From Antarctobacter heliothermus (GTDB taxonomy: Bacteria > Pseudomonadota > Alphaproteobacteria > Rhodobacterales > Rhodobacteraceae), in the NCBI RefSeq assembly GCF_900188425.1, contig NZ_FZON01000029.1, forward strand, positions 1 through 56,795: 56,795 bases of DNA, read 5' to 3'. The position numbers were made by a program, and so were the translations under genes. Shown piece after piece: positions 20,705 to 43,059 of this stretch (position 1 is the stretch's first letter; each line of letters starts with the position of its first letter). Below the pieces are notes generated by a model, which saw only the letters and a list, made by a program, of their open reading frames with translations, had not been told where the DNA came from and did no database searches.

Positions 20705-21049
20705 TTAGCCAAACTTGATAGATTCGCCACAGCCGCACGCCTCGGTGACGTTGGGATTGCGGAACTTGAACCCGGATTCTAGCAGTGATGTCTCATAGTC
20801 GATTTCCGTGCCAAACAGGGACATCTGCGCCATCGGCGCGATCAGAACCCGTGCACCGTCTTGTTCAATGACTTCGTCATTGGCATCCGGTCCGTTCACG
20901 TATTCCATTGTGTATTCCATACCCGCGCATCCGCCCTTTTTGATTCCAATGCGAAGTCCCGTATGACCCGCTGAGGCCATCAGCTTGCTGATATGCTGGG
21001 CGGCTTTAGATGTGATGGTAACGGCTTGCTTTCCTGGGGTCGTAAACAT
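20705..21049 (-). CDS. A-type Fe-S cluster carrier (HesB/IscA/SufA family)
   Basis: 114 aa with the three conserved Cys of the family: Cys41 (GGCAGMEY) and Cys105/Cys107 (EACGCGESIKFG at the C-terminus). A-type carriers pass Fe-S clusters from the scaffold to apo-targets. ATG 21049 has GAGGAG upstream. It is separated from bolA by an IS6-type scar but runs in the same direction as the bolA-moaA-sigma-nfu-mrp-marR genes, so it probably belonged to the same transcription unit. Intact. Confidence 0.92.
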   Translation of the reverse strand: MFTTPGKQAVTITSKAAQHISKLMASAGHTGLRIGIKKGGCAGMEYTMEYVNGPDANDEVIEQDGARVLIAPMAQMSLFGTEIDYETSLLESGFKFRNPNVTEACGCGESIKFG

Positions 21050-21131
21050 TATTGATACTCCTCTTGCTGGAAAGATAGGCGTTGGCCAGCATTTCTCAAG
21101 CATTGGCGTCAGAATAAGTTTGCAGGAAGTC

Positions 21132-21400
21132 AGGGGCGTTCTGTCACAAATTTTGTAGCAGGCTGAGACTACTTGATCAGCAGCTAAGGCGATGCAGCGA
21201 GCGCTGCAAATTGCTGAAACGTGCAAGGATATTTCGCCGCAAACTTGCCCTTTCGGATCATGTGGGTAACCTCGATCCCAACAATGGTTGCTGTGGCAAA
21301 AATGGAAGACTTTGAAGCCCATTATTGGGCGGATGATACGTTTGATGAACCGATTTGAGCTGCTTCGCAGTGCATACGATCGCAGCATCGCTTCTTTAAC
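21132..21400 (-). pseudogene. IS6-family transposase, 3' remnant
   Basis: In pieces of two frames the minus strand reads FIKRIIRPIMGFKVF, then after a frameshift IVGIEVTHMIRKGKF and QQFAALAAS followed by a stop, matching the C-terminal end of IS6-type transposases. The sequence GTTCTGTCACAAATTT at about 21138 resembles the IS6 terminal repeat. Only one end and under a third of the gene remain. It lies between iscA-type and bolA genes of the Fe-S island. Confidence 0.65.
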
Positions 21401-21485
21401 AGGGACCGGAACGTAAGCGCGACAAGACCAGACTTCATAACGAGACAATGAACTGATGGCCGAAGCAGCACATGACGCGTTTTGA

Positions 21486-21800
21486 TCACCGCCGTGCGCC
21501 ACCACCCAGGCAAGGGGGCGATGCGGGTGCTTCTTGTGAAATGGACCATTCCTCTTTGGTCATCGTGTGCAACGCCAGCGCATGAATATGGGTGGAAAGG
21601 GTTTTTGCGAGAATGCCGTTGAGCAGCCGGTGGCGTGCCACCAGCTTCTTGCCTTCAAAGGCAGAGCTCACGATCACCACCTTGAAATGTGATTCTGCCC
21701 CCTCCGGCACATTGTGCTTGTGGCTTTCATTGATGACTTCCAGATGTTCAATCGACAATCCGAGACCGAGTTTGTCGATGATGTCCTGCCGTATTGTCAT
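21486..21800 (-). CDS. bolA: BolA-family protein
   Basis: 104 aa with the BolA fold: LSIEHLEVINESHKHNV, HFKVVIVSSAFEGKKLVARHRLL and the conserved HALALHTMT segment. BolA proteins work with monothiol glutaredoxins in Fe-S trafficking and in sensing Fe-S status. ATG 21800 is preceded by GGAGGAAGC, and the gene follows moaA by 70 nt. A C-terminal extension (SPPCLGGGARR) may come from sequence change at the IS6 scar. A glutaredoxin remnant lies at 34.5 kb in the same island. Confidence 0.9.
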   Translation of the reverse strand: MTIRQDIIDKLGLGLSIEHLEVINESHKHNVPEGAESHFKVVIVSSAFEGKKLVARHRLLNGILAKTLSTHIHALALHTMTKEEWSISQEAPASPPCLGGGARR

Positions 21801-21870
21801 GCTTCCTCCGAAAAATTGTTCTTTTACAGCGTGCCCTCATACGTCGATCCGTACAACAACGCCCCTGAGC

Positions 21871-22875
21871 TCAGCCGCCGGTATGGCTCATGTGGCGGAT
21901 GACCTGCCCGTCGACCTTCTGTCGTGAATAGTCGAAATCATGCCCTTTTGGTTTGCGGAGGATCGCGTCGCGGATCGCCTGCTGCAACATGGCATCATCA
22001 GCATGATCGCGCATCGGTTTGCGCAGATCTGCCATGTCTTCCTGCCCAAGGCACATGTACAATTCTCCGGTGCAGGTGAGTCGCACGCGGTTGCAGCTTT
22101 CGCAGAAATTATGCGTCAGCGGCGTGATAAAGCCGATTTTCTGGCCGGTCTCGTTGATCCGGACATAGCGGGCCGGGCCGCCTGTCTGCTCTGACAGGTC
22201 AGTGGTGGTAAAGCGCGTTTCAAGCTGCGCACGCAGGTCCTTCAGCGACCAATACTGGCCGATACGGTCCTCGTTCCCGAGATCGCCCATCGGCATCACC
22301 TCGATAAACGTCAGATCCATGCCTTCCTCGGCGCACCAATGTGCCAGCGTGAACAGCTCGTCCTCGTTGAAGTCCTTAAGTGCCACGGTATTGATCTTGA
22401 CCCGCAAGCCCGCCTTTTGCGCGGCGCGGATGCCCGCTAGCACTTGTGGCAGACGGCCCCAGCGTGTGATCTCGGCGAATTTCTTCTCGTCCAGCGTATC
22501 CAGCGAGACATTGATACGCTGCACGCCACAAGCCGCCAGATCGCTCGCAAATTTCTCCAGTTGCGATCCGTTTGTTGTGACGGTCAACTCTTTCAGTGCG
22601 CCGCTTTCAAGATGCCGCGTCATACCCTTGAAAAAGGTCATGACATCGCGACGCACCAAAGGCTCGCCCCCCGTTATCCGCAGCTTTTCCACTCCAAGAC
22701 CGACAAAGGTAGTGCACATACGGTCCAGCTCTTCCAGCGTCAGCAGTTCCTTCTTGGGCAGGAATGTCATGTTTTCGGACATACAATAGACACAGCGGAA
22801 ATCGCATCTATCAGTGACAGATACGCGCAGGTAAGAAATCGCGCGGCGAAACGGGTCGATCAATTTTGGTTCCAT
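21871..22875 (-). CDS. moaA: GTP 3',8-cyclase (molybdopterin step 1)
   Basis: 334 aa, full length. The radical-SAM motif is at Cys24-x3-Cys28-x2-Cys31 (RCDFRCVYC), [12 protein letters not shown] follows, and the second [4Fe-4S] site is in [15 protein letters not shown]. The end RKPKGHDF and HMSHTGG is typical of MoaA. It converts GTP to the precursor of molybdopterin and needs two Fe-S clusters. No other moa genes are in the window, which suggests a spare copy of an Fe-S enzyme rather than a pathway cluster. A TATC-N6-GATA palindrome lies just upstream of the start. Confidence 0.93.
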
Positions 22876-22988
22876 AGATAGTATCTCCTATGATAGTCAA
22901 ACGGCCGTTTTCTGAACAACTTTGCATTCAGTGGTGCCATTTTTTAGGCATGTAATTGCGCTCTGCGACAGAACATGGCTGTCTGCCT

Positions 22989-23849
22989 TTAGATGAAGTA
23001 CTCCAGCTCCAGATCTCGTTGCCCCATGGTGGTTCTCAGCCTCTCAAACCCGCGTTCGCGCAGCTGCCGCACGCGTTCCTTTGAGATTCCGAAGTGAATT
23101 CCGAGAGTTGTCAAAGTAGCCGGTGGGTCTTGGAGCTGCGTCGCTACTATGATCTCGCGCTCACGGTCGGGCAGAGCGCCAATCATCTCGACAAGAAGAG
23201 CGCGCAGCGTCTTGATATCGTGGCGGTTCATAGTATCTGCATCTTCCATGCTGACTGGATCGACGAGCCGCGCTATCCGGTCCTCTCCGTCATCACCGAC
23301 CGATGGTACGTTCAGCGAGAAGTCAGCACCGGAAACCTGCTCACGCAGATCGTTCAGCCTTCGGGGGCTAACGCCAAGCGCCCTGGCAACGCACGTATCG
23401 GCGTCGGCCCTACTGATAGTTGGATTGTTTAAAACGGTCTCGTCAAGCCGCGATAGGTTGGCGATGGATTTTCGGAGATCGACCGAATTTGGGCGCCGTA
23501 CAATCGATCTGTTTGCCAGCTTGTAGTCCTGAATTTCTGCACGGACCCACCAGACGGCATAGGTTGAAAAACGGTAGCCTCGGTCAAGATCAAAGCGGTC
23601 TGCCGCCTTCATCAGTCCAATATTTGCCTGCTGCACAAGATCGAATTCAGCCGTCTGCGACCCTGCCAATGCCCGTTTTGCCATTGCGCCGGCCATCGGG
23701 CTGAAGGCTGTGATTACCTTGTCGCGTGCGCGCTTGTCACCACGTTGTTGCCACGCCCGCAAAAGATGCAACTCGTCGCCGGCTCTGAGCATGTTCGGAG
23801 TGCGCTTGCGGCGCGGCTGTGTCCCCCAGTTTGATATTGGTTTGTTCAT
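22989..23849 (-). CDS. RpoH-like alternative sigma factor
   Basis: 286 aa sigma-70 family protein of the sigma-32 class: no region 1.1, region 2 (DLVQQANIGLMKAADRFD, RFSTYAVWWVRAEIQDY), region 3, and region 4 (LPDREREIIVATQ, TTLGIHFGISKERVRQLRERG). The N-terminal Arg/Lys-rich segment and the spacing are like RpoH. I start at ATG 23849; a TTG lies four codons upstream. It sits between moaA and the NifU-fusion gene and has palindromic operators over its probable promoter. It could direct island genes or a heat/oxidant regulon. Which promoters it reads is not known. Confidence 0.85.
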   Translation of the reverse strand: MNKPISNWGTQPRRKRTPNMLRAGDELHLLRAWQQRGDKRARDKVITAFSPMAGAMAKRALAGSQTAEFDLVQQANIGLMKAADRFDLDRGYRFSTYAVWWVRAEIQDYKLANRSIVRRPNSVDLRKSIANLSRLDETVLNNPTISRADADTCVARALGVSPRRLNDLREQVSGADFSLNVPSVGDDGEDRIARLVDPVSMEDADTMNRHDIKTLRALLVEMIGALPDREREIIVATQLQDPPATLTTLGIHFGISKERVRQLRERGFERLRTTMGQRDLELEYFI

Positions 23850-23862
23850 TGCACCGCTCAAC

Positions 23863-23930
23863 TTAGTTTCGAAACAAAACTAACTTACTTCAGGCCATCT
23901 TGTCAAATTGATTTCGTTTCGATACTAAAT
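23863..23930 (-). promoter_or_regulatory. Operators at the sigma-factor promoter
   Basis: Perfect inverted arms TTAGTTT-N7-AAACTAA cover 23863-23883, just before the sigma-factor start. A second related site, ATTTCGTTTCGATACTAAAT, is at 23911-23930. On the minus strand TTGACA (23904-23909) is 17 nt from the TTAGTT that begins the first site, so the palindrome would cover the -10. Both sites share the TAGTWTCG core with those at 34.2 and 43 kb. Confidence 0.5.
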
Positions 23931-24024
23931 ATTATGAACCATGGGTTGCCGTAAGGGGCAGGATAACGCAGCAAGAAATTCCAACCTTGCGGAAATCCAC
24001 CCCACGAACAATCTGCTCAGGCGA

Positions 24025-25284
24025 CTACTCTGAAGCAGTTTCCTGAATTTTTTCGAGCGTGGATGAGACTTCACCTAGAAGCCGTTCGTGAAAAGCACGG
24101 TCAGTTTCGCCATCCATGGGTCCACGTTCCAACGTCTGCGCCAGTTCAAAAAAGCCCTTGCCGGGGAGTTCATCCCCGCCGCGGCTGACGGCCCGCGCTG
24201 CGATGAAGGGTGTCGCTAACGCAGCATCCACGCGCATTGTGGCCTCGAGTGCGGAAGTCACTTTGGCGATCGAACCCGGTGCCCAATATCCAAGCGCGCG
24301 TGCAAGTTTTCCGTAGGTAATTGGCACTTTGTCTTCGGGCAGGTTCTGGAGGTATCGTCGAACTTGGTCAGCCAGCGTTTCCCCGACGGTGGCTTGAATT
24401 GGCCTTGCACGCGGCGGCGGAGCTTCGCGGGCTGTGCCATCAGCAAACACTTCTGCCGCCCAGGCTCTGACGGGGGTTCGCACTGTGATGCGTGTCTTTC
24501 CTGCGTGCTCTTCAGTCCCGGTTTCGGAGCTGCTGACGATGTCACCGTTGCGCATGCCTGCGCGCAAGGTGTCTGGCGTCAGCCCAAGTTTCGGTGCGAG
24601 GTATTCGGGATCTATGATGATCTGTCCGTCTTCCCAGTCGATCGTCCCAGGTGGCAGTGGCCGGTTTAGAGTTGGCGTATTTCCCGGTGTGCCAGTGTAG
24701 AAAGGGTTGGCTCCGGCTTCGTGGTCTGTCAGGTCGATGATTTCGCGAATTGCGGGAAGACCGGCGCGCAGCATGGTCTCAATACCCTGACGCAACGTGG
24801 CGGATGACGCGGCACATCCCTGACAGCCCCCAGACATGCGCAGATAGACATCACCGTTCTCAACGCGCTCTACGGCGACGCTACCGCCGTGGCTGGCGAT
24901 CGCTGGGTTCGCCTCGCGGTCGAGCAGATCAGCGACGGCCAGCAAAAGAAGCGCGTCTTCACCCTTAGGCGCTTCGCTCCGTTGTCCCAATGGTAAGGCT
25001 TCGCGATCCAGAACATCCCGAATTGCAGCCGCAATTGGGGCTTTCAATGCGGACCAATCCACATCCGTGCTGCGACTTACATAGATCGAAGCGCCGTCAA
25101 CCTCGACACGCTGCACACCCGAGATGGCAAATAGTGCCCGCGCCAGCGGGGCATCCGTGCTTGCATCGTCGTAGCAAACTGATGCGCTGTCTTGGACGGG
25201 TGCCTCGAGAATAAAGCGCATGGTTTGCGGGTCTTTTACCGTGGGCTGCACCCGAATGCGGCGGCGCGTTGCAGCTTCAGACAT
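24025..25284 (-). CDS. NifU-type scaffold fused to DUF6522 and an alkyltransferase-like domain
   Basis: 419 aa, four segments. (1) About 15-92: NFU N-terminal domain (MRFILEAPVQD, LARALFAISGVQRVEVDG, DVDWSALKAPI). (2) About 113-196: NifU C-terminal cluster-binding domain with Cys154-x2-Cys157 (GGCQGCAAS). (3) About 215-287: DUF6522-like (IDWEDGQIIIDPEYLAPKLG). (4) About 303-380: resembles the DNA-binding fold of O6-methylguanine methyltransferases (ITYGKLARALGYWAPGSI, FIAARAVSRGGDELPGKGF), but the catalytic Pro-Cys-His-Arg is absent. Start ATG overlaps the mrp stop by 8 nt. Likely an Fe-S donor; the role of the last two parts is open. Confidence 0.8.
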   Translation of the reverse strand: MSEAATRRRIRVQPTVKDPQTMRFILEAPVQDSASVCYDDASTDAPLARALFAISGVQRVEVDGASIYVSRSTDVDWSALKAPIAAAIRDVLDREALPLGQRSEAPKGEDALLLLAVADLLDREANPAIASHGGSVAVERVENGDVYLRMSGGCQGCAASSATLRQGIETMLRAGLPAIREIIDLTDHEAGANPFYTGTPGNTPTLNRPLPPGTIDWEDGQIIIDPEYLAPKLGLTPDTLRAGMRNGDIVSSSETGTEEHAGKTRITVRTPVRAWAAEVFADGTAREAPPPRARPIQATVGETLADQVRRYLQNLPEDKVPITYGKLARALGYWAPGSIAKVTSALEATMRVDAALATPFIAARAVSRGGDELPGKGFFELAQTLERGPMDGETDRAFHERLLGEVSSTLEKIQETASE

Positions 25285-26473
25285 CCTCAACCTCTACGCT
25301 TTGCATGGCGCGAAGGGCTTTGAATGTGTAGATTCCAGTGCTGTGGCCGTCACTGAAAGCCAGCCCAAGCGCATAATTCCCAAGGCTCCATATCCGCGTC
25401 GGTTTGATAGATTGCGGTACGTTGGAGGGATCAAGTATTGCCGCACCGCTCATCTCATCGCGACAAGCTGCACAGCGACAATTCAGCCGAAGATCGCGCG
25501 ACCCGATCAATTGTTCATGGCCGTCCTGCCAGCAGATTGTCAGCCCGATCTCATCATGATCAAGCGCTATGGCCACGTCAGCAGCACCACCGTAGCTGAA
25601 AGGTGCCGCGTCAGCAGGTTTGCCCGTGCCCTCGGACACATGCCAATCGAAGGGCAACGCAAGGCCGCCTTTCTCGGAACCGCCGCCAACAAGCGCCTCA
25701 GCAATCTTGACATAGACCTGCGCGGCGGGGCTGTCTGGATGGGCACTTACCATGGGTGTGCCCGCATCGCCTGTGTCAACAATTGCCGGCTCGATTGGAA
25801 CCGCGCCCAAAAACGGTACGCCGATTTCGCGCGCAATAGCTTCACCGCCCCCTTTGCTGAAGATATGCGTAATTTCACCGCAGGACCCGCATGCAAAGCC
25901 GCTCATGTTCTCGACGATCCCAAGAATCGGAACGTTGACCTGTTGCATCATGCGCAAGCCGCGCCGCGCGATTTTCAGGCTGACATCCTGCGGCGTGCTG
26001 ACGACGACTGCGCCAGTCAGCGGAAAGGCCTGTGCAAGCGTCAGCTGGATATCGCCAGTTCCCGGGGGAAGATCCAAAAGCAACACATCCAACTCGCCCC
26101 ACTCCACCTGAGCGACAAACATCTGCAAGTATTTGGTCACCATCGGGCCGCGCAGGATGGCAGGACTGTCATCATCCGACAGCATAGCCATCGACATCAC
26201 CTTTATGCCAAACGCCTGCGCAGGGATCACTTTTTTGTCCGGTGACATGACAGGCGGCTGATTACCCTTGATGCCCAACATGCCCGGGATGGAAGGCCCA
26301 TAAATATCGGCATCCACAACGCCGACCCGCAGCCCCATGCCCGCCATTGCAACCGCGATATTGGCTGTTACGGTTGATTTCCCGACACCACCCTTGCCAC
26401 TGCTGATAGCGAATAGCTTGCGTTCGTTATGACTGGAATTTGCAGCGTTTGCATGGGCGTCTTGTTGTGTCAT
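25277..26473 (-). CDS. Mrp/ApbC-family Fe-S carrier ATPase with C-terminal DUF971
   Basis: 398 aa. P-loop SSGKGGVGKST (deviant Walker A), VDADIYGPSIPGMLG, LLDLPPGTGDIQLTL, and CxxC (FACGSCGE) that holds a bridging Fe-S cluster in the dimer. The last 95 residues are a DUF971 domain (RLNCRCAACRDEMSGAAIL, ALGLAFSDGHSTGIYTF). It lacks the N-terminal MIP18-like domain often found in Mrp. It overlaps marR (ATGA) and the NifU fusion, so the three form one operon. Role: ATP-dependent delivery of Fe-S clusters. Confidence 0.93.
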   Translation of the reverse strand: MTQQDAHANAANSSHNERKLFAISSGKGGVGKSTVTANIAVAMAGMGLRVGVVDADIYGPSIPGMLGIKGNQPPVMSPDKKVIPAQAFGIKVMSMAMLSDDDSPAILRGPMVTKYLQMFVAQVEWGELDVLLLDLPPGTGDIQLTLAQAFPLTGAVVVSTPQDVSLKIARRGLRMMQQVNVPILGIVENMSGFACGSCGEITHIFSKGGGEAIAREIGVPFLGAVPIEPAIVDTGDAGTPMVSAHPDSPAAQVYVKIAEALVGGGSEKGGLALPFDWHVSEGTGKPADAAPFSYGGAADVAIALDHDEIGLTICWQDGHEQLIGSRDLRLNCRCAACRDEMSGAAILDPSNVPQSIKPTRIWSLGNYALGLAFSDGHSTGIYTFKALRAMQSVEVEDV

Positions 26474-27087: not shown

Positions 27088-27097
27088 GGTCTTTTGA

Positions 27098-30605: not shown

Positions 30606-32570
30606 TCAAGCCCCAGCTGCTAGTGATTTTCGTCGCCAGTTGATAAGGCCGCCTTCCAGAATCACAGCAATCTGCTTCTCGGTGAGGCTGGGATCGGTGA
30701 TAATAGAGTCCTTGCCCTGGATATCTAGAATGACATCGCCGTCATTTGCCAGCGTTTGATGCAGATCCCGCGCGATGAGGACATCACCTGTTTCAAGGCG
30801 TTCATAGTCCTTCGGCTCGGCAAATACGAGTGGCAGAACACCGTAATTGACCAGGTTCTGCCGATGGATGCGCGCAAAGCCTTTGGCCAGTACGAGCCTC
30901 AAACCGAGGTTGCGTGGTGCGACGGCCGCATGTTCGCGTGACGAGCCCTGGCCGTAATTGTCACCAGCGATCACGGAATGACCGGTTGTGCTACGCACGG
31001 AGCGCGCGTGCTCGACATAGCTCGTGTCGATACGCTCGAACGAGAAATCATCGATCTTCTGGATGTTCGAACGGAAAGGCAGCACCTTTGCGCCCGGTGG
31101 CATGATCTCGTCAGTCGAGATGTCATCGCCCATCTTGAGGATTACCGGCAGCTCTAACGTGTCAGGCAACGGGTCGAAATCGGGAAGCGATTTAATATTA
31201 GGACCCTTTACCACCACGACAGAACGCGACTCGTCCGGGTGGGGTGGTGCATCAATCATCGTCTCTGTCACGACAGTTTTCTCTGGGTATCTAAGCTGCG
31301 GGCAAGGCATATCGAGAGAGCGGGGATCGGTTATTTTGCCCGTAAGTGCAGACGCAGCGGCGGTCTCGGGAGAGCAGAGAAAAACAGAATCTTCCCTGGT
31401 CCCCGACCGGCCCGGAAAGTTGCGCGGCACTGTTCGCAGCGAATTCCGTCCGATCGCGGGGGCTTGCCCCATACCGATGCACCCGTTGCAGCCAGCCTGA
31501 TGTATCCGTGCCCCGGCGGCCACCATGGCACCAAGCCGACCGTCCGCGATCAGAGTTTCGAGAGTTTGGCGGGAGGACGGGTTGATGTCGAAGGAAACCG
31601 TCGGGGGGACCACCTGTCCTCGCACGATATCGGATACCACTGCAAAGTCACGCCAGCCCGGATTGGCCGACGATCCGATATAGGCTTGATAGATTTCTTC
31701 TCCCTCGACCTCACTAACAGGCACGACGTTACCTGGGCTCGATGGCTTGGCAATCAGTGGCACGAGAGTGGAGAGGTCGATCTCGTCGTGATGGTCGTAG
31801 GCGCAGCCGTCGTCGGCGGTGAGTTCGACCCAGTCCTCGGCTCTTCCCTTGCTCTCGAGAAAGCGCTTGACCTCTTCATCAGACGGAAAAACTGTCGTTG
31901 TCGCGCCCAATTCCGCGCCCATATTGGCGATGACATGACGATCCATTGCGGTTAGGTCAGCCAGGCCGGGACCATAGTATTCGATGATCTTGTCGATACC
32001 GCCCGAAACCCCGTGCCGACGCAGCATCTCGAGGATCACATCCTTGGCGCTGACCCAGTCGGGAAGTTTGCCTACGAGTTTGACGCCGAAAATCTCGGGC
32101 ATGGCCATCGCAAAAGTTTCACCCGACATGGCAAGCGCCACGTCGAGGCCGCCTGCCCCGATTGCCAGCATGCCAAGCGCGCCGGCCGCCGGCGTGTGGC
32201 TGTCAGCACCCAGGAGAGACGCACCGGTCCTCCCGAAGCGCTCCATATGCACCATATGGCTGATGCCGTTGCCTGGCCGCGAATACCAGACGCCAAGACG
32301 CCGGCAGATGCTTTCGAGGAACAAGTGATCGTCCGGATTCAGATTATCGATTTGAAGCAGGTTGTGATCGACATACTGGACGCTGACTTCGGTTTTTACA
32401 CGGTCGAGCCCGATTGCCTCCAGGGACAGCATGGCAAGGGTTCCTGTGGCGTCCTGGGTCAGCGTCTGGTCGATCCTGAGCTCAATTGGGGCACCCGGCG
32501 TCATCTCGCCAGCGACCAGATGCGATCGGATCAGTTTTTGTGCGGCATTGAAATTTTTGGCATTCTCCAT
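30606..32570 (-). CDS. Short-form aconitate hydratase
   Basis: 654 aa, shorter than the usual 890-aa AcnA and closer to the mitochondrial/Aquifex-type. It contains VQYVDHNLLQ, GNGISHMVHMERF, LLGADSHTPAAGALGMLAIG and the cluster motif GCNGCIGMG. The swivelling C-terminal domain has GDDISTDEIMP and AGDNYGQGSSREHAA. The third cluster Cys of classical aconitases (GSCTNS) is replaced by GSSANPG. ATG 32570 has GGAGGGGAG upstream; the 41 codons before it are unsupported. It converts citrate to isocitrate and would be a second copy of a TCA enzyme. Active-site Ser/Arg of SSRE are present. Confidence 0.87.
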   Translation of the reverse strand: MENAKNFNAAQKLIRSHLVAGEMTPGAPIELRIDQTLTQDATGTLAMLSLEAIGLDRVKTEVSVQYVDHNLLQIDNLNPDDHLFLESICRRLGVWYSRPGNGISHMVHMERFGRTGASLLGADSHTPAAGALGMLAIGAGGLDVALAMSGETFAMAMPEIFGVKLVGKLPDWVSAKDVILEMLRRHGVSGGIDKIIEYYGPGLADLTAMDRHVIANMGAELGATTTVFPSDEEVKRFLESKGRAEDWVELTADDGCAYDHHDEIDLSTLVPLIAKPSSPGNVVPVSEVEGEEIYQAYIGSSANPGWRDFAVVSDIVRGQVVPPTVSFDINPSSRQTLETLIADGRLGAMVAAGARIHQAGCNGCIGMGQAPAIGRNSLRTVPRNFPGRSGTREDSVFLCSPETAAASALTGKITDPRSLDMPCPQLRYPEKTVVTETMIDAPPHPDESRSVVVVKGPNIKSLPDFDPLPDTLELPVILKMGDDISTDEIMPPGAKVLPFRSNIQKIDDFSFERIDTSYVEHARSVRSTTGHSVIAGDNYGQGSSREHAAVAPRNLGLRLVLAKGFARIHRQNLVNYGVLPLVFAEPKDYERLETGDVLIARDLHQTLANDGDVILDIQGKDSIITDPSLTEKQIAVILEGGLINWRRKSLAAGA

Positions 32571-32975
32571 GTCTTCTACTCCCCTCCCGGTTGTTTCGGC
32601 AGTGTCAGCAACAGGATGCATCCTCCACCAGATTTTCTGCGCTAACGCTTTTCCAAGGTCAGTGTTCACACAATTGGCTCTGTTGCGGAGCACTTAACTT
32701 ATTCAATCAAAATCCTGCTATTTCTTTAGCCTAATTGGGAACCCAGCTTAGTTGAAAAATATTCCTCCCTCGCCCTGGCGGCAAATTCGAAGCGTGCGTC
32801 CATGATGATGGCGCCCGCTCGATAACGTTCCTGGCAGCAACCGTGTTGATGCATTTCGTCATATCCACATCGTAATGGTTGAATGGCGATGACAAGTGCC
32901 AAACGTGCGGCCTCGTACAGTCTGCAGGCGACACAATGCCCTGCACCATCCGCATACTACCGAAGAGCAGGCTCA
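32571..32975. other. Gene-free region upstream of aconitase
   Basis: 405 bases between the lipA stop and the aconitase start, both on the minus strand. A weak promoter-like TTGATT sits near 32710 on the minus strand, and ACTTAGTTGAAAAAT near 32748 resembles half of the island operator. No gene recognised. Confidence 0.35.
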
Positions 32976-33977
32976 TCATTGAACCATGGATTCAAGAGAT
33001 CCGTCTCGCTTGGCCGGTTGAGCATTGCTCCGGGCATCAAAAAGAAGTGCTTCGCGCGCGACCCGCAAGCGGGCGAAATCTTTGCCAGCATGGTAAGAGG
33101 AACGCGTCAGAGGCGAGGCCGAGACCGTGAGGAAGCCCTTAGAGTAGGCCATAGACTCAAAGCGTTTGAACTCGTCCGGTGTGACAAAACGATCGACGAC
33201 ATGATGCTTGGGCGTTGGCTGTAGATACTGCCCAATGGTCAGGAAATCGACATCGGCAGCACGCAGGTCATCCATGACTTGGAGCACTTCTTCGCCGCTC
33301 TCTCCCAAGCCGACCATGATGCCAGACTTGGTGAACATTGAGGGGTCCAATTTCTTGACCTGGTCGAGCAATCGGAGGGAGTTGAAGTAGCGCGCGCCTG
33401 GCCGAACCTCGGCGTAGAGCCTTGGCACAGTCTCCAGGTTGTGATTGAAGACATCCGGTTTGGCTGCAACGACGGTGCCTTCCGCACCATCTTTGCGCAA
33501 AAAGTCCGGGGTGAGCACCTCGATCGTCGTGTCCGGTGTTGTCTTTCGGATGGCTCGAATAACCGCCGCAAAATGCTCCGCGCCACCATCGGCCAGATCG
33601 TCCCGATCGACCGATGTAATCACGACATGCGCAAGCCCGAGACGCGCCACGGCTCTGGCGACATTGGTTGGTTCGAAGGGGTCAAGATGGCCCGGCTTCC
33701 CGGTCGCAACATTACAAAATGTGCACGCCCGAGTGCAGACCTCGCCCATGATCATCATGGTCGCGTGCTTCTTGGACCAGCATTCCCCGATGTTGGGACA
33801 GGCGGCTTCCTCGCACACCGTCTTGAGATTGTGTTCACGAACGATCTTGCGGGTTTCGTGATAGGTGTCCGAAGTAGGTGCCTTGACCCGGATCCAGGGG
33901 GGCTTGGGCTGAGTTGGATTGTCCGGTTTGTGAGCCTTTTCCGGATGACGCAGGCGGCCATCGGTCTCTAGTGTCAT
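32976..33977 (-). CDS. lipA: Lipoyl synthase
   Basis: 333 aa. Auxiliary cluster motif [13 protein letters not shown] and radical-SAM motif [10 protein letters not shown], then [22 protein letters not shown] and the C-terminal Ser of PLTRSSYHA that ligates the auxiliary cluster. It inserts sulfur into octanoyl groups to make lipoate, sacrificing its own second cluster. GAGGGGGTTCC precedes the start. No lipB nearby, so it looks like an extra copy. Transcribed from a divergent promoter at 34.2 kb shared with the sdhB/fdxA side; aconitase lies downstream. Confidence 0.95.
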
Positions 33978-34230: not shown

Positions 34231-34303
34231 ATGATATCGTTTCCATACTACATTGACAAGACCATAGTTTCGAATCTATATACATGTAGTTTCGTTTCGA
34301 TAC
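34231..34303. promoter_or_regulatory. Divergent promoters with three operator-like palindromes
   Basis: The plus strand has TTGACA (34253-34258), 18 nt, TATATA (34277-34282). The minus strand uses the same centre: TTGTCA (34259-34254), 17 nt, TATCAT (34236-34231). Three related sites lie on them: ATATCGTTTCCATACTAC (34234-34251), ATAGTTTCGAATCTAT (34264-34279, perfect around TTCGAA except one symmetric position) and GTAGTTTCGTTTCGATAC (34286-34303). One bound repressor could shut both directions: lipA (minus) and glx remnant-hyp-sdhB-fdxA (plus). Confidence 0.6.
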
Positions 34304-34449
34304 CATATATCAGCAGAAAAGGAAGTGGGGAAAAATGCAAAATAGCAGCAATGCCAATATGGGTTTCGAGACCCCGGACTGCCACCGTCCATGCAAGCAA
34401 CATCCTCGGCAATCGCGCCTATGCCATCACAACTTAAAGCAATAAAAAG

Positions 34450-34611
34450 GAGCTCCGCGAGGGAATCAAGGTATTTACTGACTGGCCCACGATCCCGCAA
34501 TTGTATGTAAAAGGAGAGTTTTTTGGCGGCTTCGACATCGTTTGCGAGGCTTATGAAAGCGGCGAGTTGGAACAGTTTCTGAAGGACAAGGGCCAGCTGT
34601 CACAAGACTAG
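34450..34611 (+). pseudogene. Monothiol glutaredoxin (Grx4/GrxD type), 3' remnant
   Basis: The frame gives [20 protein letters not shown], then [17 protein letters not shown] and [13 protein letters not shown], the C-terminal half of a Grx4-type protein. The N-terminal half with the CGFS active site is missing and TAA interrupts the frame at 34435-34437. A separate 36-codon frame (34335-34445, MQNSSNANMGFETPDCHRPC...) starts after the promoter but matches no glutaredoxin. Grx4 proteins hold an Fe-S cluster with BolA, so this was probably part of the island's Fe-S set. Confidence 0.7.
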
Positions 34612-34628
34612 CGAGAAAGGACATGCTG

Positions 34629-34967
34629 ATGACACCTGATACATCAACGATCAGTAAAAACACTGCAAATGACGGGTATGCTGGATGGCCGCCCCTGGCC
34701 TCATGGCACTTGTCAAAACCCGCCAATCCGGTGGTGAAAATCGCGGAGCAGGTCGTTTATGTCTGTTTTCCTGTTATTCTTCCGGGAGAAGACGGTCGCG
34801 TCATTCCCTTCGGCAGATATCATCTTGTAGCGCGTAACCAAAGCAGACCTCAACTCGGGCGGCCCCATCAGGCTATGCTAGTGAATGGAGACAACGGGGC
34901 GCGCATTGATCTATCTGCTCAGCAGTTAAACGCCATTGTTCAAGACCCCGATGTGGAGTTTTACTAG
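34629..34967 (+). CDS. Hypothetical protein directly before sdhB
   Basis: 112 aa. I start at ATG 34629 because AAAGGA lies 7 nt before it; ATG 34623 is the alternative. Contains [34 protein letters not shown] and a C-terminal [15 protein letters not shown]. No family recognised, no membrane segment, one Cys. The stop TAG is one base from the sdhB start, so it is co-translated with SdhB. Confidence 0.5.
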
Positions 34968-34968
34968 G

Positions 34969-35763
34969 ATGGTCCAGCTTCGCCTGCCAGCCAATTCACG
35001 GATGACCACTGGCCACATTTGGCCGAAACCGGTCGACGCCGTGAGAACGAAGTCTTTCAAGGTATACCGCTGGAACCCGGACGACGAAGAGAACCCCCGC
35101 ATAGACTCCTATGAAGTGGATCTCGACACCTGCGGCCCGATGGTTTTGGACGCTCTCATCAAGATCAAGAACGAGATCGACCCAACGCTGACTTTCCGGC
35201 GGTCCTGCCGGGAGGGCATTTGCGGCTCCTGTGCGATGAACATCGACGGCATCAACACGCTGGCGTGCATACAATCAATCAGTGACATCAGGAGTGACGT
35301 GAAAGTTTATCCGTTGCCGCATATGGAAGTCGTCAAGGACCTGGTGCCGGATCTGACACACGCTTACGCGCAATATGCGTCAATCGAGCCCTGGCTTAAG
35401 ACCGATACGCCGACGCCCGACCGGGAGCGCATACAGAGCCCAGCAGACCGCGATAAGCTAGAGGGTTTGGACAACTGCATTCTCTGCTTCTGCTGCACCG
35501 CTTCTTGCCCCAGCTACTGGTGGAACGGTGATAAAGACGGCACTGAGGAATTTCTGGGGCCAGCAGTGCTTCTGCAATCTTATCGCTGGATATCCGACAG
35601 CCGCGATGAGGCGATGGACGAACGGCTGGATGATCTTGAAGACCCGTTCAAGCTCTATCGCTGCCACACGATTATGAATTGTGTCGCTACCTGTCCCAAG
35701 GGCCTTAATCCGGCAAAAGCAATCGCTGAAATCAAGAAGCTTATGGTCAAGCGCAAGATGTAA
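34969..35763 (+). CDS. sdhB: Succinate dehydrogenase iron-sulfur subunit
   Basis: 264 aa. It has all three cluster motifs: [2Fe-2S] [15 protein letters not shown] and TLAC, [4Fe-4S] [12 protein letters not shown], and the [3Fe-4S] site [17 protein letters not shown]. SdhB passes electrons from the FAD subunit to quinone. There is no sdhA, sdhC or sdhD here, so this is a lone copy and must pair with subunits encoded elsewhere. ATG 34969 follows GGAGTTTTACTAG. The N-terminus (about 20 residues) is extended against E. coli SdhB. Sequence looks fully functional. Confidence 0.95.
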
Positions 35764-36186: not shown

Positions 36187-36516
36187 ATGACCTATGTGGT
36201 AACGGAATCCTGCATCAAGTGCAAATATACGGACTGTGTTGAGGTCTGCCCCGTCGATTGCTTTTACGAAGGCGAAAACATGCTCGTCATTCATCCGGAC
36301 GAATGCATCGATTGCGGCGTCTGCGAACCGGAATGTCCCGCAGACGCTATCCTGGCGGACACCGATCAAGGTGCCGAGGCTTGGCTTGAGCTCAACCGCG
36401 ACTTTTCCGCCAAATGGCCAAACATCATCCAGCAAGGCGAGGCTCCGGCAGATGCTGCCGAGTATGACGGCATGGAGAACAAGTTCGACAAGTATTTCAG
36501 CCCGAAGCCCAGATGA
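36187..36516 (+). CDS. fdxA: 7Fe ferredoxin (FdxA family)
   Basis: 109 aa. Cluster motifs [17 protein letters not shown] and [12 protein letters not shown] at the N-terminal half bind one [3Fe-4S] and one [4Fe-4S] cluster. The C-terminal extension ([28 protein letters not shown]) is typical of the alphaproteobacterial FdxA. It is an electron carrier, here a second copy in a Fe-S island. It follows sdhB on the same strand by 423 nt. Confidence 0.95.
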
Positions 36517-36532
36517 GGTGGTCCCGGACAAT

Positions 36533-36991: not shown

Positions 36992-37258
36992 CTATCCATT
37001 GATATTGTCTGAAAATACGCAGCCCGGCGGATCGGCCTCACGCGGTTTGAGCTGGGGATCATAGCTAAACAAGGTCGCACAATAGGGACAGAGTATCGTG
37101 TCCGCCGCACCCATATTGAGATAGATATGCGGGTGATCCTGGGGCGCTGAAACGCCTGCGCATTTGAACTCTTTCACGCCAATTCGGATTTCGGGGACGC
37201 CCAGATCGTTCTTGAACTTTGCATAACTGTCACGCGTCATCGCGTCCGGCCAACTCAT
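36992..37258 (-). CDS. zf-CHCC zinc-finger protein
   Basis: 88 aa with Cys33-x8-His42-x14-Cys57-x2-Cys60 (EFKCAGV, QDHPHIYLNMG, LCPYCATLF), the zf-CHCC pattern related to the accessory NDUFS6 subunit of complex I. EADPPGCVF follows. ATG 37258 overlaps the previous gene by 29 nt; an ATG at 37240 is the alternative. Last gene of an nfuA-hyp-zf operon. A zinc or Fe-S related function would fit its neighbours. Confidence 0.8.
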   Translation of the reverse strand: MSWPDAMTRDSYAKFKNDLGVPEIRIGVKEFKCAGVSAPQDHPHIYLNMGAADTILCPYCATLFSYDPQLKPREADPPGCVFSDNING

Positions 37259-37990: not shown

Positions 37991-38049
37991 GTTTCAACTC
38001 TCTTGTTTTGTTGGTTGCTCAGGCTGTAAACGGGGGAATCGCGGGATGG

Positions 38050-38250
38050 CCATGGAGCAAGCCGCCCGTAACACTCATATGTCGTGAAATTGCCGGTGTT
38101 TTTGTATGACGGTCGATAACAAAGTCATGGCCTTTCGGTTTGCGGGTGATCGGCTCACACGCTGACGCCAGCGGCGCAAAGATTGTTGGCGTAGCGTGCA
38201 AGTTGCGAGCCGTTGGTAGCAGAGTGAGTTCGTCGAGCGCACCGCTCTCC
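38050..38250 (-). pseudogene. Second moaA, 3' part, internally deleted
   Basis: The minus strand reads GALDELTL, then in another frame TNGSQLARYANNLCAAGVS, then [17 protein letters not shown] and ISRHMSVTGG, the end of MoaA. About 180 residues between these parts are missing and the frame shifts. The 5' part continues on the other side of IS66 (40978-41085). A dead copy of the moaA intact at 22 kb. Confidence 0.75.
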
Positions 38251-38335
38251 GTAAGCGCCGTCCCCGTCCCATTGATTTCCACGGTTCCGTTACGCTGATG
38301 GAGCAGCGAGTTTCCTTCTGAGATTTCAGAAGGAG

Positions 38336-38770
38336 ATGGCAATGGCGGACGGCGGGGATGGGTTTGATGGCTGCATTGAGGTTTTGCCGCGAACGCGGGG
38401 ATATCGACGCTGGCCGGATGAGGTGAAAGCCCGGATCGTGGCAGAGAGCTTTCAGCCTGGCGTGCGGGTCGTGGATATTGCCCGGCGGCATGGTCTGGTC
38501 GCGCATCAGCTGTCGGATTGGCGGCGGCAGGCTCGCTTGGGTAAGTTGGTTCTGTCGGCGGACGCCATGTCCGGAGTGTTGTCAGGTGTTTTACCGGCCT
38601 TCGTGCCGTTGTCTGTAGAGGATGAGAGTGTCGGTTTGTCAGTGGATGCCGGACCGATGTGCGGGATCATCACTATCGAGATGGGTGGCGACTTCGTGCT
38701 GCGGGTGCCGGGGGATGTTCCGGCAGAGCGGGCCGCAGCGGTGGCGCACGCATTGCGGGGGCTGGCATGA
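38336..38770 (+). CDS. tnpA: IS66 accessory protein TnpA
   Basis: 144 aa, HTH protein (WPDEVKARIVAESFQPGVRV, DIARRHGLVAHQLSDWRRQA) that acts with TnpB in IS66 transposition. AGGAG precedes the start. Its stop overlaps the tnpB start (ATGA). C-terminal half less conserved, as usual. Confidence 0.9.
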   Translation: MAMADGGDGFDGCIEVLPRTRGYRRWPDEVKARIVAESFQPGVRVVDIARRHGLVAHQLSDWRRQARLGKLVLSADAMSGVLSGVLPAFVPLSVEDESVGLSVDAGPMCGIITIEMGGDFVLRVPGDVPAERAAAVAHALRGLA

Positions 38771-39120
38771 TCGTCGCGGGACAGCGTCAGCCGATCCTGA
38801 TTGCGACACGTCCGGTGGACTTCCGCTGCGGGCATCGGGCGCTGGCACTGATTGTGCAGACCGAGCTGAAGCTGGATCCGCATTCCGGGGTGACGATCGT
38901 GTTCCGTTCGAAACGCGGCGACAGATTGAAGATTTTGGTTTGGGACGGAACAGGTCTCGTGATGGTCTACAAAGTTTTGGAACAAGGCAACTTTGCCTGG
39001 CCGAAGGTTCAGGACGGGACAATGCGGCTGTCGCGCGCCCAGTATGAGGCTTTGTTCGAAGGTCTGGACTGGCGCCGGATCGTTGCGCAGCGGGTCGCTC
39101 CACCCAGTGCAGCGGGATGA
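38767..39120 (+). CDS. tnpB: IS66 accessory protein TnpB (Orf2)
   Basis: 117 aa with the family pattern: ILIATRPVDFRCGHRAL, GVTIVFRSKRGDRLKILVWDG, LEQGNFAWPKVQDGTMRLS. Starts at ATG 38767, overlapping tnpA by 4 nt, which rules out the longer upstream frame. Required for transposition of IS66. Confidence 0.92.
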   Translation: MIVAGQRQPILIATRPVDFRCGHRALALIVQTELKLDPHSGVTIVFRSKRGDRLKILVWDGTGLVMVYKVLEQGNFAWPKVQDGTMRLSRAQYEALFEGLDWRRIVAQRVAPPSAAG

Positions 39121-39183
39121 TTTAATCAGCTGTTCTGGCGTTGTTTTATTGGCCTTTCCAGTCCGGATCGGCTATGAATCTGC

Positions 39184-40857: not shown

Positions 40858-40977
40858 GCTCATCCGGGACTCCTCAGTGAGCTCATTGTGAGCAATCACG
40901 AGGGCGAAAATGTTAGCCGACATCGGCGCAAATCCAGCCTGCAAGCAAAATCCCAATGGGGCGGGAACGGCGCTTAC

Positions 40978-41085
40978 CGCTCTCCAGAAACCGCCCAAGA
41001 CGCTGGGACGGCCACAGGACGTTCTTGCAAACGAGAGGCTTGCCGCCGTTGAGTGGCAGCTTGCGCACCCTCCCGGCGGATGACG
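40978..41085 (-). pseudogene. Second moaA, 5' part
   Basis: Minus strand reads VRKLPLNGGKPLVCKN and QRLGRFLESG, matching MoaA around [12 protein letters not shown]. It would join SGALDELTL across the IS66 target site at CGCTCTCC. The first 70 or so residues with the radical-SAM cysteines are absent. Together with 38050-38250 this is one broken moaA. Confidence 0.65.
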
Positions 41086-41207
41086 GCGGTACACAGCCAA
41101 TCGAGTTCTTCGCTCCGTAAATCGAACGGTTATCAGGCACCAATTGGGTTGTATCGAAAGGAGTCATCGTTTTGCCTACTTGTTTGCGGTTCTCAGGGGT
41201 TGCGCCA

Positions 41208-41657
41208 TCATTGGCCTTCAATATGGAGAACGATTTCGCGGGCTCGCGGTGTCTGCCGATGCTCGAACAGGAAGATACCCTGGTAACGGCCCAAAAGCAG
41301 GTCGCCATCGCAGACCGGGATGGCAAGGTGCGTCTGCGTCAGCGCGCCTTTGATGTGGGCCGGCATGTCGTCAGCGCCTTCAGCGATGTGCCGGTAAAGC
41401 GTAGTGTCTTCCGGTGCCTGCGCTGCGAAGAAATCTTCCAAATCGCGCAGCACGTCCAGGTCATAGTTTTCCTGAATGAGAAGGGAGGCGGAGGTATGGC
41501 GCAGATAAAGAGTCAACAGTCCGGTCGTCACTTTCTGTGACTCGATCCAGGTCAGGATATCTCCTGTGATTTCGCAGAGACCTTGACGCGGTGCAGTCAC
41601 AGTGTGGCGGCCTTGCGTTAACTTTTTGACGTAAAGCGGAGCGGCTGAAATATCCAT
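41208..41657 (-). CDS. YjbQ-family (UPF0047) protein
   Basis: 149 aa with the family motifs LTLYLRHTSASLLIQEN, DMPAHIKGALTQTHLAIPV and LLGRYQGIFLFEHR. Homologues are described as having weak secondary thiamine-phosphate synthase activity; the true role is unsettled. AAGGAGG precedes the start. Last gene of the marR2-hyp-rhodanese-yjbQ group. A thiamine operon begins 2.6 kb away but in the other direction and under a riboswitch. Confidence 0.85.
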   Translation of the reverse strand: MDISAAPLYVKKLTQGRHTVTAPRQGLCEITGDILTWIESQKVTTGLLTLYLRHTSASLLIQENYDLDVLRDLEDFFAAQAPEDTTLYRHIAEGADDMPAHIKGALTQTHLAIPVCDGDLLLGRYQGIFLFEHRQTPRAREIVLHIEGQ

Positions 41658-41668
41658 TTTTGTCCTCC

Positions 41669-41998
41669 TTAATAGCGTGGCATGTCCGGCTCGATCAGCC
41701 GGGACCAGGCATCAATCCCGCCAGCCAGGTTCCAGGCATTTTCAAAGCCATTGTTGCGCAGGAATTCCGTCACCATGGCGCTGCGCACGCCGTGACGACA
41801 CTGCACAATAAGCGGGGACCCACGGGACAAGGCATCTATGTGTTGAGGAATGCTCTGCATGGGAATCCACTGGCTGCCCTCGATGGCGCAGGTCTCCACC
41901 TCAATTTGTTCGCGGATGTCGAGGACGGTGTGGGCGATCTCATCGGCACGCATCCCAGCCAGAGCGTGAACATCAATATCGTAAACTTGCATTTTCAT
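41669..41998 (-). CDS. Single-domain rhodanese-like sulfurtransferase
   Basis: 109 aa with TVLDIREQIE, GSQWIPMQSIPQHI and the active-site loop QCRHGVRSAMVTEFL, where the Cys would carry a persulfide. The order VLDIRE...VQCRHGVRSA is that of GlpE-like rhodaneses. Start ATG 41998, or two codons later. Located between a hypothetical gene and yjbQ in an operon headed by marR2. A sulfur donor for Fe-S, thiazole or other sulfur chemistry is plausible. Confidence 0.85.
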   Translation of the reverse strand: MKMQVYDIDVHALAGMRADEIAHTVLDIREQIEVETCAIEGSQWIPMQSIPQHIDALSRGSPLIVQCRHGVRSAMVTEFLRNNGFENAWNLAGGIDAWSRLIEPDMPRY

Positions 41999-42012
41999 AT
42001 GGTCGGTACCGT

Positions 42013-42354
42013 CTATTCAGGAGAGCTGGCGATGCTCTCGATTTCTTGGTACGAAGCCGCTCCGACAATGAAGGAACGCATCCTCCTGCGCTGTGAAGTT
42101 CGCCGTTCAAATTTCCGCAACCAATCGACGAGGCTACAATCTGAAATGAGTCGGAATCTGGGTTGCTTTGGTTTGAATGAACACACCTCAACTCTCGTTC
42201 TGCGATCAGTCTCTGCGACATCGGCAACAGGGCTGTTTCCCATATCTTCTTTCAAGGATTCGACGGAAAGGCTCAGTTTTGGTGCCCGCGCCTCGGCGTT
42301 GATCACGGCATCACGATCAACAATACTTGCAACTTCCGTGAAGGGATGGGTCAT
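42013..42354 (-). CDS. Hypothetical protein of the marR2 operon
   Basis: 113 aa, starting ATG 42354 in an ATGA overlap with the marR2 stop. Highly charged, mixed helix and strand (MTHPFTEVASIVDRDAV, LSLSVESLKEDMGN, SDCSLVDWLRKFERR). Two Cys (VEVCSFKP, SDCSL). No family recognised. Translational coupling argues that it is a real gene. Confidence 0.5.
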   Translation of the reverse strand: MTHPFTEVASIVDRDAVINAEARAPKLSLSVESLKEDMGNSPVADVAETDRRTRVEVCSFKPKQPRFRLISDCSLVDWLRKFERRTSQRRRMRSFIVGAASYQEIESIASSPE

Positions 42355-42947
42355 CGCAAGCCGACCCCAGCTTTGGGCGCAGGCTTTTCCGGAGTGAAAT
42401 CGATGCAGAGCCTGCCCAGATCTTCTTCCATGAGCGGTTCCTGCTGGAACGTGCATAGATGGATGGGCCGACCTTCCTCACAGCCGCCGCCGTCAGCGAA
42501 ATGCGCACAGCTTTCGCAAACGCCAAAATGCGGCTTACCCGTCGCAAGGGCGACGCGCCCCAACATGCGCTGTAGAATACTGGAAAAGCCTCCCCGGACG
42601 CCTGGAGGTAAAGCCTCCACCGCCTCGACCAGGACTTCGATTGGATCGTTGACCACCAAGGCTCTGGCCTTATTCGTCAAGCCCAATCGCACACTGCGTC
42701 CGTCGGCCTTGGATCGGGCCTGATGCAAATAACCCTGTGTCACCATGCTCTTGATAGCCTGGGAGGCCGAGCCGCGGGTTATGCCGTGAAACGCAGCAAA
42801 CGCAGATGGAGTCTGCGAAAAACGATTTGCGTGGGCGAAATATCTCAGAATAGCCCACTGGCCCGGCGTCAACCCCTCCACAAGGCCATCACCTGACACA
42901 ATTCGCCCGAGGTGCATCAGTTGTTCGGTGATAGTGCGGCTGTCCAT
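42351..42947 (-). CDS. MarR-family regulator with Cys-rich tail (copy 2)
   Basis: 198 aa, paralogue of the copy at 26.5 kb. Shared stretches include QWAILRYFAHANRFSQTPSA and DGRSVRLGLT. The tail has Cys144, Cys147 (FGVCESCAHF), Cys156, Cys165 and Cys181 (LGRLCIDF), the same pattern as copy 1. ATG 42947 follows GGAGG at 14 nt and family length supports it; the upstream open frame crosses the promoter and is rejected. A strong promoter and palindromes lie directly upstream, suggesting autorepression. First gene of the hyp-rhodanese-yjbQ operon. Confidence 0.85.
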   Translation of the reverse strand: MDSRTITEQLMHLGRIVSGDGLVEGLTPGQWAILRYFAHANRFSQTPSAFAAFHGITRGSASQAIKSMVTQGYLHQARSKADGRSVRLGLTNKARALVVNDPIEVLVEAVEALPPGVRGGFSSILQRMLGRVALATGKPHFGVCESCAHFADGGGCEEGRPIHLCTFQQEPLMEEDLGRLCIDFTPEKPAPKAGVGLR

Positions 42948-42982
42948 TTGAGACTCTTTCCTCCCGTATACATTAATGGAAA

Positions 42983-43059
42983 TATATAGCGTTTGCCCGC
43001 CGTATTGACAAGTATATAGTTTTGAATCCATACTATATTGGCTTTACTTTGATACTAAA
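42983..43059 (-). promoter_or_regulatory. Promoter and operators of marR copy 2
   Basis: Minus strand: TTGTCA (43011-43006), 17 nt, TATATA (42988-42983), close to consensus. Directly upstream are inverted arms ATATAGT and ACTATAT (43014-43020 and 43032-43038, 11 nt apart), and a further related site TTTACTTTGATACTAAA at 43043-43059. They share the TAGTAT core and TTTCG-like centre with sites at 23.9 and 34.2 kb. Confidence 0.6.

Follow-up and report, generated by a model that had tools for sequence, protein, structure and literature searches.

Circuits built on IscR or SufR place a cluster-sensing repressor over iron-sulfur (Fe-S) assembly factors, and isozyme switching of the SoxRS type replaces cluster enzymes in times of stress with clusterless or tougher isozymes (AcnA, FumC). 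In the 56,795 nucleotides of Antarctobacter heliothermus DNA analyzed here (contig NZ_FZON01000029.1, positions 1 to 56,795; hereafter the window), an island at 20.7-43.1 kb recalls both. We think it probable, with moderate confidence, that this island is an inducible, horizontally assembled replacement set of Fe-S proteins and carriers under a MarR regulator of Fe-S type, which would sense clusters and govern induction. Like IscR and SufR, the regulator proposed here would be a cluster-sensing repressor over Fe-S assembly factors. It has, however, a MarR-type domain with a four-cysteine tail and no Rrf2 domain (Pfam gave only MarR, HTH_27 and SarA/Rot-type domains), and its units encode carriers, a sigma factor and Fe-S enzymes; neither a cysteine desulfurase nor a scaffold (IscSU or SufBCDS) was found among the 20 island proteins searched. 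Like SoxRS switching, the island would replace cluster enzymes under stress, but mostly with further Fe-S proteins and carriers, and on mobile-looking DNA. The regulator itself resembles ArnR of Corynebacterium, a MarR/ArsR-like winged helix-turn-helix (wHTH) protein with C-terminal cysteines which binds DNA in its Fe-S form and controls nar and hmp (PMC12343034). Judged by that description rather than by alignment, ArnR differs in its targets and in having three conserved cysteines (179, 193 and 223), where the island proteins have four, including a CxxC.

The island contains 11 intact genes for Fe-S or carrier proteins together with a sigma factor, two MarR regulators and three gene remnants. 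Families were assigned with Pfam and NCBIfam (20 island proteins were given to Pfam, 40 over the whole window), and remnants were located with tblastn. An initial annotation of this DNA had described Fe-S proteins and their assembly factors clustered in 22 kb, and its gene names and coordinates were confirmed. Its Mrp-DUF971 protein is an Mrp with a C-terminal GBBH-like_N domain, its sigma factor is sigma-32-like, and the remnants that it reported of Grx4 and a second moaA were both recovered, along with a DUF6522 remnant that it had not listed. The SdhB and MoaA that it saw as standing alone do so: neither SdhA, SdhC or SdhD nor other moa genes were found among the 20 island proteins (Pfam). 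Besides these genes, the island holds transposase pieces, YjbQ, a rhodanese, a YeiH-type membrane protein and small open reading frames (ORFs) without a family. The features, in window coordinates, are as follows.

20705..21049, minus strand: A-type Fe-S carrier (SufA/IscA-like); PF01521, TIGR00049 above cut-off
21486..21800, minus: BolA; PF01722
21871..22875, minus: MoaA, replacement copy; TIGR02666 above cut-off
22989..23861, minus: sigma-32 (RpoH)-like factor; nearest NF005693, 199 bits, below the cut-off of 315
24025..25290, minus: Nfu_N + NifU + DUF6522 fusion; Pfam
25277..26473, minus: Mrp/ApbC P-loop NTPase with C-terminal GBBH-like_N (DUF971-type); PF10609, PF06155
26470..27087, minus: MarR1, four-cysteine (C149, C152, C164, C180); PF12802
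27675-30259: Tn3 transposase piece; IS91 transposase piece sharing one open frame with a YeiH-type transporter
30606..32693, minus: aconitase with Ser at a ligand-Cys position (GSSANP); NF005558 and TIGR01342 above cut-off
32976..33977, minus: LipA, replacement copy, probably foreign; TIGR00510 above cut-off, tree
34450..34608, plus: Grx4 C-terminal remnant; tblastn, 74% over 53 amino acids (aa)
34623..34967, plus: orf114 (114 aa); no family, hypothetical gene at the matching place on an Octadecabacter arcticus plasmid
35002..35763, plus: SdhB without SdhACD; TIGR00384, tree
36187..36516, plus: FdxA ferredoxin; NF045490 above cut-off
36992..37258, minus: zf-CHCC protein, which we take to be NDUFS6-like; PF10276, order NfuA-orf70-zfCHCC also in relative L120
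37230..37442, minus: orf70, beside NfuA; no family, 60% homologue at the equivalent place in L120
37439..37990, minus: NfuA; PF08712 and PF01106
38061..38156, minus: MoaA C-terminal remnant; tblastn, 53% over 32 aa
38336..40857, plus: IS66-type element (type by eye) within the MarR2 unit; HTH_Tnp_1, long transposase-like ORF
41208..41657, minus: YjbQ (UPF0047); TIGR00149 above cut-off
41669..41998, minus: rhodanese; PF00581
42124..42354, minus: DUF6522 remnant; tblastn, 33% over 84 aa, intact homologue at the equivalent place in L120
42351..42947, minus: MarR2, second four-cysteine MarR; PF12802, start set by homology, ORF opens at 43031

In 2-kb windows, the island mostly has a guanine-plus-cytosine (GC) content of 52-59%, rising to 62% across the IS66-type element; the flanks have 61-64% at 8-20 kb and 58-64% on the right. 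The island looks like acquired DNA.

What most of its units have in common is a 19-bp palindromic operator, TRRTWTCGAWTCGAWAYYA. The position weight matrix (PWM) for it was trained on the upstream regions of 79 loci from relatives and of a second cassette in the same genome (on contig C135), with the window excluded; the relatives' loci are the best 80 of 271 found by one genome-collection scan, and many of them end at contig borders. Training yielded 142 sites in 78 of the 80 sequences. When the 80 loci (1.23 Mb) were scanned, 133 sites scoring at least 16 lay near MarR starts and 3 elsewhere, two loci had no site, and the reversed matrix gave 0; 79 of these loci are the training set, so the scan shows sharpness, not prediction. 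Two of the three off-start sites precede a second Nfu/DUF6522 match in one locus (L118). Paired sites are 43-46 bp apart in 49 of the 55 two-site loci, and 65 of the 80 loci have TTGTCA or TTGCCA upstream, a count made without a control. In the island, the matrix found the following sites.

23864..23882: predicted MarR operator site; PWM 24.6, 2 mismatches
23909..23927: predicted MarR operator site; PWM 27.0, 1 mismatch, 45 bp from the 23864 site
34232..34250: predicted MarR operator site; PWM 21.2, 2 mismatches
34265..34283: weak MarR operator-like site; PWM 10.6, 3 mismatches
34287..34305: predicted MarR operator site; PWM 27.0, 1 mismatch
43017..43035: predicted MarR operator site upstream of MarR2; PWM 20.9, 2 mismatches

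A further weak site lies at 7450 of the window (score 12.7); three Markov control sequences held on average 0.33 sites scoring at least 12. Across the organism's own genome (5.17 Mb, 159 contigs), a pattern search allowing at most 2 mismatches gave 7 sites, five in the island and two on C135, against 0 for the control; allowing 3 gave 13 matches, again with 0 for the backward control pattern. Among 248 genomes of the family, 93 had any pattern match and this genome had the most (7), the next having 5. The case for more than a chance clustering of the genes is built on this operator search, which is independent of gene names. The sites head RpoH-MoaA-BolA-IscA, the divergent units LipA-Acn and Grx4 remnant-orf114-SdhB-FdxA, and MarR2 with rhodanese and YjbQ; the IS66-type element now cuts NfuA-orf70-zfCHCC off from the last of these. 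This arrangement suggests that one family of four-cysteine MarR proteins represses the island units through matching sites. We considered a wider regulon and set it aside: four 3-mismatch sites elsewhere in the genome lie, judged by eye, in or beside TRAP-transporter, ABC-F and other genes, with no Fe-S theme.

The initial annotation had also described two Cys-rich repressors, and both prove to carry four conserved cysteines. MarR1 and MarR2 are 39% identical over their aligned part, each has a MarR winged-helix domain (PF12802 above cut-off), and in both this is followed by C-x2-C, C and C. The four cysteines are invariant in 22 of 22 aligned homologues with identities down to 29% (some at 29-34%), and again, all after residue 145, in a second alignment of 41; both alignments are chosen subsets of all matches. 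A pattern check on all fetched loci was passed by 77 of 80, 27 of 30 and 19 of 24 in three sets. Five loci of the last set miss the pattern, among them its four weakest matches, and two loci that fail the check (L117 and L122) nevertheless show the four cysteines in the 41-sequence alignment. Among the structure matches listed by Foldseek, all 50 are MarR-type regulators by name or MarR-fold entries. Sequence matches in the PDB end near position 139 of the 181-position profile, short of the cysteine region, and so concern the MarR domain only. The AlphaFold2 model of MarR1 has a mean predicted local distance difference test (pLDDT) score of 80.4, the five models ranging from 54.6 to 80.4. The CxxC...C...C pattern and the neighboring Fe-S carrier genes lead us to think that the site most likely holds an Fe-S cluster; if so, the family is likely a new class of Fe-S sensor within the very large MarR family. 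An open-access literature search found no paper on this MarR family or on the island, and none on DUF6522.

The four-cysteine family extends past Fe-S cassettes. In Ruegeria, Phaeobacter and Leisingera (L029, L124, L125), a distant four-cysteine MarR is followed by MOSC-domain genes; operator scores there reach 18.1 in Ruegeria and 24.9 in Phaeobacter, and none is at least 12 in Leisingera.

The view of the island genes as replacement copies, already put forward in the initial annotation, is borne out by further copies of most of them elsewhere in the genome; the possibility that they are the only copies therefore falls away. Identities to the island proteins are 79% for MoaA (contig C91), 74% for LipA, 73% for the A-type carrier (C78), 71% for SdhB, 68% for NfuA and 66% for FdxA; BolA has two more copies, and C135 holds a second RpoH / MarR-Mrp-Nfu/DUF6522 cassette. 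Aconitase has a counterpart only of a different type: the island protein matches ORFs of 917 (C85) and 969 (C53) codons locally, at 33-48%, and these are, judged by their size, probable AcnA-type aconitases. A second zf-CHCC gene was not found in the genome at E 1e-5 with a joined query. Most cysteines of six island copies are also present in their resident counterparts, including 6 of 6 in LipA, 12 of 13 in SdhB, 9 of 9 in FdxA and 9 of 10 in MoaA.

Trees point to a foreign origin for two of these copies. In a LipA tree of 33 sequences, the resident copy groups with two other family members (100/100) and the island copy lies outside. In an SdhB tree of 12, the two host-family copies form a pair (100/100) without the island copy, whose own partner is that of the O. 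arcticus plasmid (100/100). The rows of both trees are mostly best matches, and the host family contributes only 3 (LipA) and 2 (SdhB). Among 190 genomes of the class, the top-scoring LipA matches belong to other families (76-78%), and the resident copy, at 74%, scores lower. Island LipA and SdhB were thus probably acquired, rather than being home duplicates.

The C135 cassette may itself be shared mobile DNA, because a Roseibaca ekhonensis contig matches this one at 99.96% over 13.8 kb and Roseisalinus antarcticus DNA does so at 97.5% over 17 kb. Its neighbors resemble, by eye, phage or gene-transfer-agent tail genes.

Much of the arrangement recurs on plasmid pOA238_160 of O. arcticus 238 (NC_020910). 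It carries FdxA, SdhB, Acn, MarR1, Mrp and Nfu-DUF6522 at 89-93% protein identity, with 84-88% DNA identity over the main blocks, together with operator sites in the SdhB-Acn gap and ahead of the sigma gene, and a 35-aa piece of zf-CHCC. It differs in having no LipA, MoaA, BolA, IscA, MarR2 or NfuA in the 40 kb read, cross-matches aside. The plasmid genes are annotated one by one, without a joint name. As to the possibility, raised with the initial annotation, that the set is not conserved together in any relative, the picture is mixed: Acn, SdhB and FdxA are shared on this plasmid, and elsewhere the enzymes occur piecemeal.

Looser parallels occur on other plasmids. A Polaromonas plasmid has Acn between two MarR genes of the four-cysteine type, and a weaker site (PWM 16.2) lies in the MarR-Acn gap. 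A Bradyrhizobium plasmid has two RpoH-MarR-FdxA units with NuoB, SdhA and SdhD, and sites between RpoH and MarR-FdxA. A Methylocystis heyeri plasmid with an island-type Acn (71%), NuoD, ETF-QO, an NDUFA9-like protein and DUF6522 resembled a further set but counts as a hint at most, no operator site having been found on the whole record. Records from Azotobacter and Defluviimonas had no operator site; the two sites in Cupriavidus and the single one in Maritalea each had 3 mismatches and lay away from the match.

Neighboring genes at the 80 loci were counted by tblastn within 10 kb of MarR. Mrp is present in 56 and Nfu/DUF6522 in 59; 50 have an RpoH-like factor, encoded on the other strand from MarR-Mrp-Nfu/DUF6522, and FdxA was matched in one, at 45%. 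ORF clustering of the 80 loci and six sequences likewise gave MarR, Nfu-DUF6522, RpoH and Mrp as the most frequent groups, in 35 to 43 loci each; these counts are lower because gene calling was crude. It also gave an ABC-type ATPase cluster in 17 loci and presumed antisense ORFs. The MarR2 type is found in four loci. One of them, L120, has the order Grx4-BolA-Rrf2 facing MarR2-DUF6522-NfuA-orf70-zfCHCC-rhodanese-ThiD-TenA, where Grx4, BolA, Rrf2, ThiD and TenA were named by eye and the window relatives of ThiD and TenA have Pfam matches. The window island therefore looks like a merger of MarR1-type and MarR2-type loci. The enzyme genes look like later additions to a regulator-Mrp-Nfu core that is widespread among relatives.

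The sequences show the gene content, the further copies, the grouping of two enzymes outside the host family and the shared operator; repression, cluster sensing, induction under cluster damage and a benefit are inferred, in the following way. MarR1 and MarR2, each with its C-terminal four-cysteine site, would bind the 19-bp palindromes at the promoters and would release the DNA when their cluster is damaged or lost. Release would induce the Mrp and Nfu-DUF6522 carriers, the RpoH-like sigma factor with MoaA, BolA and the A-type carrier, and the divergent LipA-aconitase and SdhB-FdxA units. Fresh carriers and Fe-S subunits could then restore the tricarboxylic acid cycle, lipoylation, molybdenum cofactor synthesis and electron transfer as the resident copies fail. 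If this is true, a strategy other than making clusterless isozymes is open to bacteria: they can pick up, ready-made, a kit that restores Fe-S metabolism after cluster destruction, and its defined operator and regulator make it directly testable. It would also give a role to DUF6522 and the Mrp-Nfu pair, and would bring to light an aconitase clade with an altered set of cluster ligands. A more far-reaching version is on balance doubtful: an unnamed family of four-cysteine, Fe-S-sensing MarR proteins, with its 19-bp operator, would govern a mobile emergency Fe-S proteome. Besides carriers and a sigma factor of its own, this would comprise foreign enzymes that may tolerate damage, including the aconitase with Ser for a ligand Cys, and different bacteria would load different spares on the same switch.

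Several observations weigh against an inducible replacement set, and some of them would fit a decaying patchwork, in which plasmid-borne housekeeping copies were gathered by insertion sequences and only the MarR-Mrp-Nfu core has a joint function. Transposase pieces (Tn3, IS91, IS66-type) and remnants of Grx4, MoaA and DUF6522 are what such decay would leave. Acn, LipA, SdhB, MoaA, BolA and IscA occur in none of the 80 loci within 10 kb, nor in the flanks of about 20 kb on each side of six relatives. Thus the synteny that the initial annotation proposed to compare holds for the MarR-Mrp-Nfu(-RpoH) core, found in most of the 80 loci, and does not extend there to the enzymes; its idea of a backup Fe-S proteome gains from the further copies, the operator shared by most units and the conserved cysteines, and loses from a full set that these loci do not conserve. 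The palindrome that relatives carry at the MarR gene's own promoter and the divergent one has decayed at the window's MarR1 promoter (PWM below 8). Given this loss, the three remnants and the transposon in the MarR2 unit, some of the genes may have dropped out of regulation. Unit membership downstream of the sites is based on co-orientation, with IscA about 440 bp from BolA, and the lone island SdhB must join resident SdhACD. On the O. arcticus plasmid, the sigma gene is only 39% identical to the island's, and a fifth site (L025 11343-11361, score 21.2) lies inside a hypothetical gene. The island LipA is weakly placed in its tree, where bootstrapping has not settled, some distant MarR matches lack the four-cysteine pattern, and the four cysteines could hold zinc instead. 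Despite all this, a patchwork should not put operator sites, on which the matrix was not trained, at the unit promoters, with sites of at most 2 mismatches nowhere outside the island and the second cassette; nor does it agree with cysteines mostly common to resident and island copies, or with an arrangement largely kept on the O. arcticus plasmid at such DNA identity. We regard the patchwork as unlikely.

A further alternative is a zinc or thiol sensor. CxxC-C-C is equally frequent in zinc sites, and the four cysteines might form a structural or zinc-sensing site responding to metal, disulfide or reactive sulfur stress; the rhodanese and the YeiH-type protein of the island would suit such a role, but the genes conserved downstream code for Fe-S carriers and not for exporters of metals or thiols, and we find this proposal rather improbable. 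Self-resistance by duplicated targets is known, and enzyme copies of other type or origin could in principle replace the targets of an antibiotic that attacks clusters, whether the host or a neighbor produces it. This is very improbable: no antibiotic-biosynthesis family was found among the 40 window proteins searched with Pfam, several ORFs being matchless and the search covering the window rather than the rest of the genome, and a core conserved across many genera suggests a common stress. Finally, the cluster might sense nitric oxide (NO) and the set replace nitrosylated enzymes, with a link to denitrification. Here the parallel is ArnR, which has a C-terminal [4Fe-4S] cluster and stops binding DNA when nitrosylated (PMC12343034). 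Mrp-NifU homologues under an Rrf2 regulator have nirK nearby in Maritalea, and DUF2249 genes both there and in Defluviimonas, and a protoglobin gene adjoins the MarR of Agarilytica. Yet the copper nitrite reductase gene nirK was not found in the organism's own genome; of the 7 family genomes that have a close MarR (at least 44% identity) one carries it, versus 23 of the 191 others, and denitrification genes are not prominent among the recurrent MarR neighbors from ORF clustering. A nirK-cassette link, examined for nirK alone in these 198 family genomes, was accordingly dropped, with no enrichment alongside the cassette. An NO response, attractive by analogy with ArnR, is an unlikely reading, and an inducible replacement set is the one that we retain as probable.

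In the Maritalea (L239) and Defluviimonas (L240) loci, both on plasmids, Rrf2 replaces MarR before Mrp-NifU; Maritalea also has pseudoazurin, and Defluviimonas DUF2249/DUF6522.

The aconitase itself is unusual. In 9 of 9 members of one alignment, and in Haladaptatus and Embleya, GSSANP stands in place of the GSCTN of mitochondrial aconitase; the members retain the CxxC pair. The replaced Cys is presumably ligand 358 of the mitochondrial enzyme. GSCTN is also what two more remote members, from Clostridia and Fusobacteria, contain. With a cut-off of E 1e-150, an island-type aconitase is present in 4 of 385 genomes of the class, this one included. The GSSANP clade spans Proteobacteria, a haloarchaeon and an actinomycete.

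Thiamine genes adjoin the island. The genome has two thiamine operons (window 43849-51149; C135, also fetched as L037, 605-8040), each beside a four-cysteine MarR cassette. The window operon lies downstream of a thiamine pyrophosphate (TPP) riboswitch; confirmed in it were ThiD, a DAO-type oxidoreductase, ThiG, ThiF, an NMT1-type protein and TenA. In L120, ThiD-TenA directly follows the MarR2 unit. Because ThiC is an Fe-S enzyme, thiamine salvage may be part of the Fe-S theme. Thiamine genes lie near 6 of the 80 loci, two of the six by a distant ThiY match alone. Elsewhere in the window, at 15356-17936, there are contractile-tail genes (Tail_P2_I, Baseplate_J, gp25-like).

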